DNA of 64,000 nt from Nitrospirota bacterium. Lineage in GTDB: Bacteria > Nitrospirota > JACRHJ01. The position numbers and the translations under genes were made by a program. The stretch spans positions 211,280 to 275,279 of the forward strand of contig JAJYHX010000001.1 in NCBI GenBank assembly GCA_021784575.1, read 5' to 3'. The notes beneath the pieces were generated by a model. That model was not told where the DNA came from and did no database searches. It saw only the letters and a program-made list of their open reading frames with translations. Position 1 is the first letter of the stretch. Each line of letters opens with the position of its first letter. Positions 35,851-37,531 of the stretch are shown piece by piece.

Positions 35851-36438
35851 ATGTCCTTTATCAATTACTCCTCCCGCGAAATAAACGTAAAGCTCGTCTA
35901 CTACGGCCCCGGCCTCTGCGGCAAGACGACGAACCTCCATTACATTTACAGGAAGACGAACCCGGAGGCGAAGGGCAAGATGATCTCGCTCGCCACGGAG
36001 ACGGAGCGGACGCTCTTCTTCGACTTCCTGCCCCTGGCCCTTGGCGAGATACGCGGTTTCAAGACCCGCTTCCATCTCTACACCGTCCCGGGCCAGGTGT
36101 TCTACGACGCCTCCCGCAAGCTTATCCTTAAAGGCGTTGACGGTGTCGTCTTCGTTGCGGACTCGCAGGTCGAGCGCATGGAGGCGAACGTCGAGAGCAT
36201 GGACAACCTCCGCGTGAACCTTTCCGAGCAGGGCTACGACATGGACAAGATCCCCTTTGTTGTCCAGTACAACAAGCGGGACCTCCCCAACGTCGCGCCC
36301 GTCCCGGAAATGGAGAAGATACTGAACCACCGCGGGCTTCCTTCCTACGAGGCCGTCGCCACCACCGGCGTCGGCGTATTCGACACATTAAAAAACCTCG
36401 CCAAACAGGTGCTCTTCGAGCTCAAGAAGGGCCATTAG
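35851..36438 (+). CDS. mglA: MglA-like small GTPase
   Basis: 195 aa; KLVYYGPGLCGKTTNLHYIY, FDFLPL, YTVPGQVFYDASRK, QYNKRDLPN. Confidence 0.93.
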   Translation: MSFINYSSREINVKLVYYGPGLCGKTTNLHYIYRKTNPEAKGKMISLATETERTLFFDFLPLALGEIRGFKTRFHLYTVPGQVFYDASRKLILKGVDGVVFVADSQVERMEANVESMDNLRVNLSEQGYDMDKIPFVVQYNKRDLPNVAPVPEMEKILNHRGLPSYEAVATTGVGVFDTLKNLAKQVLFELKKGH

Positions 36439-36838
36439 CCGGTCTGCCGGTTTCAGGCGGCGGGCCGGAAATCCGAAATAGTTTTCATGGCGGCTTAAGT
36501 CAGTGCCGTCGATTTCAGGAAAAAAAGGCCCGGCGTCAAACCATGCCGAGGCGGCCGCGTCTGTAACGTGCAACCACTTGAAAATCCAAGATTTAACCCG
36601 GAGCTTGCCGCCTTCCGCGCTGCCGGAGGCAATAAGCCCGCGGCGCCGCATGTCACGCGAGCAGTGATTGCTTAACGTATTGGTTTTGCAGACAAATTTT
36701 AAATCGCACAACATAAATGCCGCCCGGAAGCCTGCAAAACGTGCCGAAGCCGGCCTGTGGATAAAAATTTTTAACCATGCGGAGGCGTAAGTTAGGCAGG
36801 ATTTTGGATTTCGTTATCAATAAGAGCCTCATCTTTGC

Positions 36839-36868
36839 TTGACAAAGCTTTCGCCCTTGGAGTATAAA
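36839..36868 (+). promoter_or_regulatory. Predicted sigma70 promoter of an orphan sRNA
   Basis: TTGACA (36839-36844), N18, TATAAA (36863-36868). Confidence 0.6.
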
Positions 36869-36874
36869 GGGGTG

Positions 36875-36931
36875 GTGGGAAGGTCCGGGAGACCTCAGGA
36901 TAGGGAAGAATTCCTGGGGTTTTATTTTTTT
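36875..36931 (+). ncRNA. Candidate stand-alone small RNA (~57 nt)
   Basis: Promoter directly upstream; hairpin GGTC-CGGGA-GACC; terminator hairpin CCTCAGGA...TCCTGGGG followed by TTTTATTTTTTT; no ORF. Confidence 0.6.
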
Positions 36932-36938
36932 AAATGAA

Positions 36939-36964
36939 AAGGGCCGGACATAAAGCCCGGCCCT
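36939..36964 (-). terminator. Terminator of the H1-like gene
   Basis: AGGGCCGGGC-tttatg-tCCGGCCCTTTT on the minus strand. Confidence 0.65.
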
Positions 36965-36994
36965 CAATCCGGAAGAACAAATTGGCTGTCTGAC

Positions 36995-37531
36995 TTACTT
37001 TGCGGTTTTGGCAGCCGGCTTCTTGGCAGCCGGTTTTGCCTTCGACGCGGCGGTCGCTTTCTTGGCGGCCGCCGGTTTTTTTGCGGCGGTCTTCTTCTTA
37101 GCGGTCTTCTTTGCAGCCGGTTTTGCAGTCTTCTTGGCGGCTGGTTTTGCCTTCGACGCAGTTGTGGCCTTCTTCGCGGCCGGTTTCTTTGCAGCCGGTT
37201 TCTTTGCAGCCGGTTTCTTTGCGGCTGGTTTCTTTGCAGTCGCTTCTGCCATTTTCGTGGCTCCTTTCTTTGCCGCCGCCTGTTTTATGGCGGCGGGATA
37301 ACAGAGCTCATCGTCCGACACGGACAACCGTCCGCATGTCTCGCAGAAAAACCTGAGCTCCATGACCTTGGGCATGCATACGTGCCGAGGGTCTTCGGCG
37401 ACATTACCGCAGAACTCACAGACAGCCAACTCGACGGACCTGACCGGGGCGCATACGTGCCCCTTGTTGGAAGTAACCGCGCCGCATGTCTGACACACGT
37501 ACAGCGGATATTCCTTGTCGGTCCTTGCCAT
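36995..37531 (-). CDS. Zinc-knuckle-like protein with histone-H1-like AAKKP tail
   Basis: 178 aa; three CxxCx8[H/E]xC repeats, then (PAAKK)n tail. Confidence 0.85.
   Translation of the reverse strand: MARTDKEYPLYVCQTCGAVTSNKGHVCAPVRSVELAVCEFCGNVAEDPRHVCMPKVMELRFFCETCGRLSVSDDELCYPAAIKQAAAKKGATKMAEATAKKPAAKKPAAKKPAAKKPAAKKATTASKAKPAAKKTAKPAAKKTAKKKTAAKKPAAAKKATAASKAKPAAKKPAAKTAK

Follow-up and report, generated by a model that had tools for sequence, protein, structure and literature searches.

In the 64,000-nucleotide stretch of Nitrospirota DNA that we analysed (the window, to whose positions coordinates refer unless a contig or locus is named), an intergenic region contains a short transcription unit with its own promoter and terminator. 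As a sequence feature, this predicted unit is genuine. Our preferred reading, held with moderate confidence, is that it specifies a genus-restricted intergenic small RNA (sRNA), which is most likely Hfq-associated and would act in trans. The unit had been proposed in an initial annotation of the region as a sponge for the regulator CsrA, with another trans-acting sRNA as the fallback. The sponge reading has to be given up, while the fallback is supported by the anatomy of the unit, by its conservation and by the presence of Hfq.

Anatomy of the predicted transcription unit

The unit lies where the initial annotation had placed it, between mglA, a motility GTPase gene (35851-36438, + strand), and a gene encoding an H1-like protein (36995-37531, - strand), which is convergent to it. 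The H1-like protein has a cysteine-rich N-terminus and a lysine/alanine-rich C-terminus, and has no match in Pfam. The parts of the unit were likewise found as claimed, all on the + strand. A -35 hexamer, TTGACA (36839-36844), is followed after an 18-nt spacer by a -10 hexamer, TATAAA (36863-36868), and the predicted transcript of about 55 nt, whose start site is inferred from the -10 hexamer, would extend over 36875-36931. Its 5′ segment GAAGGUCCGGGAGA (36879-36892) leads into an intrinsic terminator hairpin (36893-36919), in which the arms CCUCAGGA and UCCUGGGG enclose the loop UAGGGAAGAAU. The stem comprises 8 bp (36893-36900 with 36912-36919) and the loop 11 nt. A U tract, TTTTATTTTTTT (36920-36931), completes the unit, with seven uninterrupted terminal T nucleotides of the type seen in Hfq-dependent sRNAs. 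According to base-pair probabilities, the first ten bases of GAAGGUCCGGGAGA are mostly unpaired, to an extent that depends on the fold, and its last four bases, GAGA, pair with UUUU, lengthening the terminator stem. We also observed that the -35 hexamer is spanned by a small inverted repeat, CTTTG-N5-CAAAG (36833-36847), which shows no change in four genomes and is a possible operator.

The pairing of promoter and terminator in this unit exceeds chance. Background statistics were taken from the contig that carries the window (623 kb, or 30% of the 2.1-Mb source genome, which is assembled in 14 contigs and is 96.7% complete). When this contig was scanned for TTGACA-16/18-TATAAT with at most one mismatch, 38 near-consensus promoters were detected, compared to 0-5 in six first-order Markov sequences. 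A strong terminator within 200 nt accompanies only one of the 38, namely the promoter of the sRNA unit, and none of those in the Markov sequences.

Conservation and genomic distribution

Of the five genus genomes covered, four (G000, the source genome, to G003) contain the unit according to DNA searches of 61 relatives. The fifth, G004, lacks it because its contig stops at an assembly edge, 237 nt short of the next conserved gene. In the sister genus (G005), the H1-like gene is retained and the sRNA unit is missing. When 296 Nitrospirota genomes were searched with a covariance model, the four members of the genus scored 92-95 bits and no match outside them exceeded 26 bits; the plasmids and phages that we searched contained no match. 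Judged by these searches, the unit is restricted to four genomes of one Nitrospirota genus. The H1-like gene is linked to it in all four, but the gene on its 5′ side varies by subgroup, being either mglA or a gene for an Ig-like-repeat protein. The unit is thus independent of mglA, and is not the leader or trailer of one particular gene.

Several apparent relatives were rejected. Those covariance-model matches at E-values of 4e-5 to 2e-3 that we inspected correspond to generic terminators or coding DNA, and a BLAST match in another genome (G030) sits within a DNA-repair-like (AlkA/Ada-type) reading frame. Pattern matches in Myxococcaceae (L010) and Anaerolineae (L012) metagenome-assembled genomes are not part of any comparable unit. 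A promoter-terminator unit in another Nitrospirota family (L030:1444-1550, genome G110) carries GAAGGTCCGGGAG in its terminator hairpin. Its architecture differs, however, and its score is no higher than chance would give in 296 genomes; that GAAGGTCCGGGAG is common to both units is probably a coincidence.

Within the unit, the RNA core is identical to that of each of the three relatives at 40 of 41 positions, and the 14-nt GAAGGUCCGGGAGA, part of whose bases are paired depending on the fold, is unchanged in all four genomes. Promoter identity is 0.90-0.94, compared to only 0.70 for the bases right after the -10 hexamer and 0.4 for DNA further upstream, and the leader bases immediately 5′ of the RNA core vary among relatives. 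The terminator stem is invariant, and both variable core positions fall in the terminator loop. In the relatives the terminator stem and the GGA in its loop are kept, but there are no compensatory changes; it is where the substitutions fall, and not covariation, that supports the structure. Fourfold-degenerate sites in neighbouring genes are 0.56-0.81 identical. Such sites in the H1-like gene are better kept (0.82-0.86), which means that conservation of the sRNA unit is partly regional. The 3′ UTR between the H1-like gene and the unit is 95-97% identical, and the region is locally slow-evolving.

Conservation extends to a block upstream of the promoter (36757-36838, + strand; 81-98% identical in the three relatives), which is probably promoter-upstream regulatory DNA. 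At its upstream edge there is a perfect DnaA-box-like TTATCCACA (36756-36764, - strand), kept in four genomes; boxes of this type occur three times in the 623-kb contig, which is about the chance number. We considered a replication origin at the locus, prompted by this box and a local GC-skew minimum, and rejected it, since both dnaA (C6:53704) and the skew minimum of the contig (57848 in contig coordinates) are 190 kb away. No cluster of DnaA boxes was found in the contig.

Other RNA features were seen in passing. The window contains a cobalamin riboswitch (RF00174; 12317-12578, + strand; 88.5 bits). In the sister genus, an apparently non-coding region of ~600 nt (L017:2341-2990, contig G005:C31) is strongly structured (z=-4.9), has a near-perfect promoter, TTGACA-17-TATAAT, and adjoins a thioesterase-like gene. 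It is partly kept, with matching spacing, in G001 (L115 around 1020-1880, contig G001:C6), and has no match in Rfam. This region is possibly an undescribed large structured RNA.

Possible functions of the RNA

The initial annotation had proposed that the RNA titrates CsrA/RsmA, with GGA motifs in loops that would bind and sequester the protein. Four GGA motifs are indeed present in 57 nt, and one lies in an exposed, conserved loop. However, this number is not above the 3.5 expected from dinucleotide content (P=0.49), the 5′-most motif is lost in all three relatives, and the GGA of CAGGAU is buried in the terminator stem. Two motifs had been placed in predicted loops. The terminator loop holds up, and its GGA alone is both unpaired and conserved, but the hairpin GGUC-CGGGA-GACC has a pairing probability of 0.00 in the four sequences because GACC belongs to the terminator stem. 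A cmscan search to E=10 gave no CsrB, CsrC or RsmX/Y/Z model for the sRNA. Most importantly, the check for csrA yielded no homolog, the outcome that the initial annotation had itself named as speaking against a sponge: CsrA (PF02599) has no match in the source genome or in the five other family genomes (G001-G005), whereas the same search is positive in 34 of 61 Nitrospirota genomes, and FliW was not found in the six family genomes either. For the source genome the sponge reading is refuted, unless in all relatives csrA happens to lie within the ~3% that is missing, and we accord it almost no probability.

Since the genome lacks CsrA, the RNA is most likely an ordinary Hfq-assisted sRNA. Hfq is encoded (PF17209, E=8e-25) and has the canonical RNA-binding residues QD, F and YKHAI. 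Besides it, there is a gene for a protein in which the Hfq-like domain occurs twice (G000:C2:131624-132027); this protein is present in all six family genomes. In E. coli, the terminators of Hfq-binding sRNAs combine a moderately strong hairpin with at least seven terminal T nucleotides (PMC5558911), and the seven terminal T nucleotides and 8-bp stem of the predicted sRNA agree with this description. So do, judging from sequence alone, the intergenic location, autonomous promoter and intrinsic terminator expected of an Hfq-dependent sRNA. We infer that the unit's own sigma-70 promoter would drive synthesis of an intergenic RNA of ~55 nt, which would end at its own intrinsic terminator, that Hfq would bind its U tail together with the hairpin of the terminator, and that either the invariant, mostly single-stranded GAAGGUCCGGGAGA or the 11-nt terminator loop would pair with target mRNAs. 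The best candidate to pair with targets is GAAGGUCCGGGAGA.

Target screens did not single out a partner. Sites complementary to the seed were about as numerous as reversed-pattern controls in the four genomes (71 versus 56, 66 versus 71, 56 versus 38 and 65 versus 49), and at 515 translation starts the duplex energies were no better than those of shuffled queries. The best single site, complementary at 13 of 14 positions and common to G000 and G001, is at chance level and no more than a lead. It lies in a secretin-like frame that immediately precedes a pseudopilin-like gene (names assigned by eye). A specific scenario in which the Hfq-associated RNA, encoded beside mglA in a lineage without CsrA, regulates surface motility through a type IV pilus/secretin-like transcript is accordingly given very little weight.

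The location of the unit could instead suggest a role in cis, in which a short transcript affects the H1-like gene by transcriptional interference, by protection of the 3′ end or as an antisense to a readthrough 3′ UTR. The convergent orientation, the linkage to this gene in all four genomes and the near-identity of the intervening 3′ UTR would fit such a role. On the other hand, the H1-like gene of the sister genus does without the unit, and the H1-like translation start ranks only 320th of 515 for pairing with the sRNA. Moreover, the H1-like gene has a separate terminator (36939-36965, - strand), and as each transcript would end at its own, the two need not overlap. We regard a cis role as unlikely. 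It is also rather improbable that the unit is a functionless promoter-terminator remnant or a dispensable transcript, kept by slow regional evolution or by promoter DNA that binds a regulator. Conservation is likewise seen at local synonymous sites in the H1-like gene (0.82-0.92) and in the 80 bp upstream that include the DnaA-box-like 9-mer, yet decay would not be expected to leave a functional promoter, an invariant 14-nt segment and an intact stem with changes confined to the loop. In four species the promoter, the 5′ segment and the terminator are all intact, and for this reason we consider a remnant the less likely reading.

A small-peptide gene is more doubtful by far. In the source genome a GTG-started frame of 21 codons runs through the RNA, and an ATG frame of 21 codons (36777-36842, + strand), which stops inside the -35 box, is present upstream in all four genomes. 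Neither has a Shine-Dalgarno sequence, and the start of the frame in the RNA is lost in G002. The upstream frame is probably not coding, given this lack and its mostly non-synonymous substitutions. In line with the earlier statement that no open reading frame fits, none is conserved, as indels between relatives break reading frames on both strands.

Comparison with known small RNAs

The sRNAs catalogued so far in the phylum Nitrospirota are few: in a survey from 2022 it is represented by 3 distinct annotated sRNAs (PMC9029176). A clean and conserved candidate whose genome encodes Hfq but not CsrA could serve for testing how Hfq and sRNAs regulate genes in this phylum; the candidate is otherwise ordinary and of a known kind. 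No sequence relative was found in Rfam. SorX and related 3′-UTR sRNAs (RF02784) are matched weakly by the 3′ UTR that follows the H1-like gene, but this match, at 24.5 bits, is below the gathering score of 46.6 bits, is on the strand opposite the sRNA and rests on a terminator-like hairpin. With the CsrB, CsrC and RsmX/Y/Z sponges and with McaS, the predicted RNA shares GGA triplets, one of them in an exposed loop. CsrB has 22 GGA motifs, 14 of them in loops, and McaS has 4 and binds two CsrA (PMC10729762); the Nitrospirota genome, by contrast, lacks CsrA, and its RNA has just one GGA that is exposed and conserved, not many. There are also parallels with Hfq-dependent sRNAs of the SgrS and RyhB type. 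Although the Nitrospirota sRNA is a prediction from sequence and, at about 55 nt, shorter than most of these, it shares with them its own promoter, a short 5′ segment that may be mostly single-stranded, depending on the fold, a moderate Rho-independent terminator with at least seven terminal U nucleotides, and a genome that encodes Hfq.
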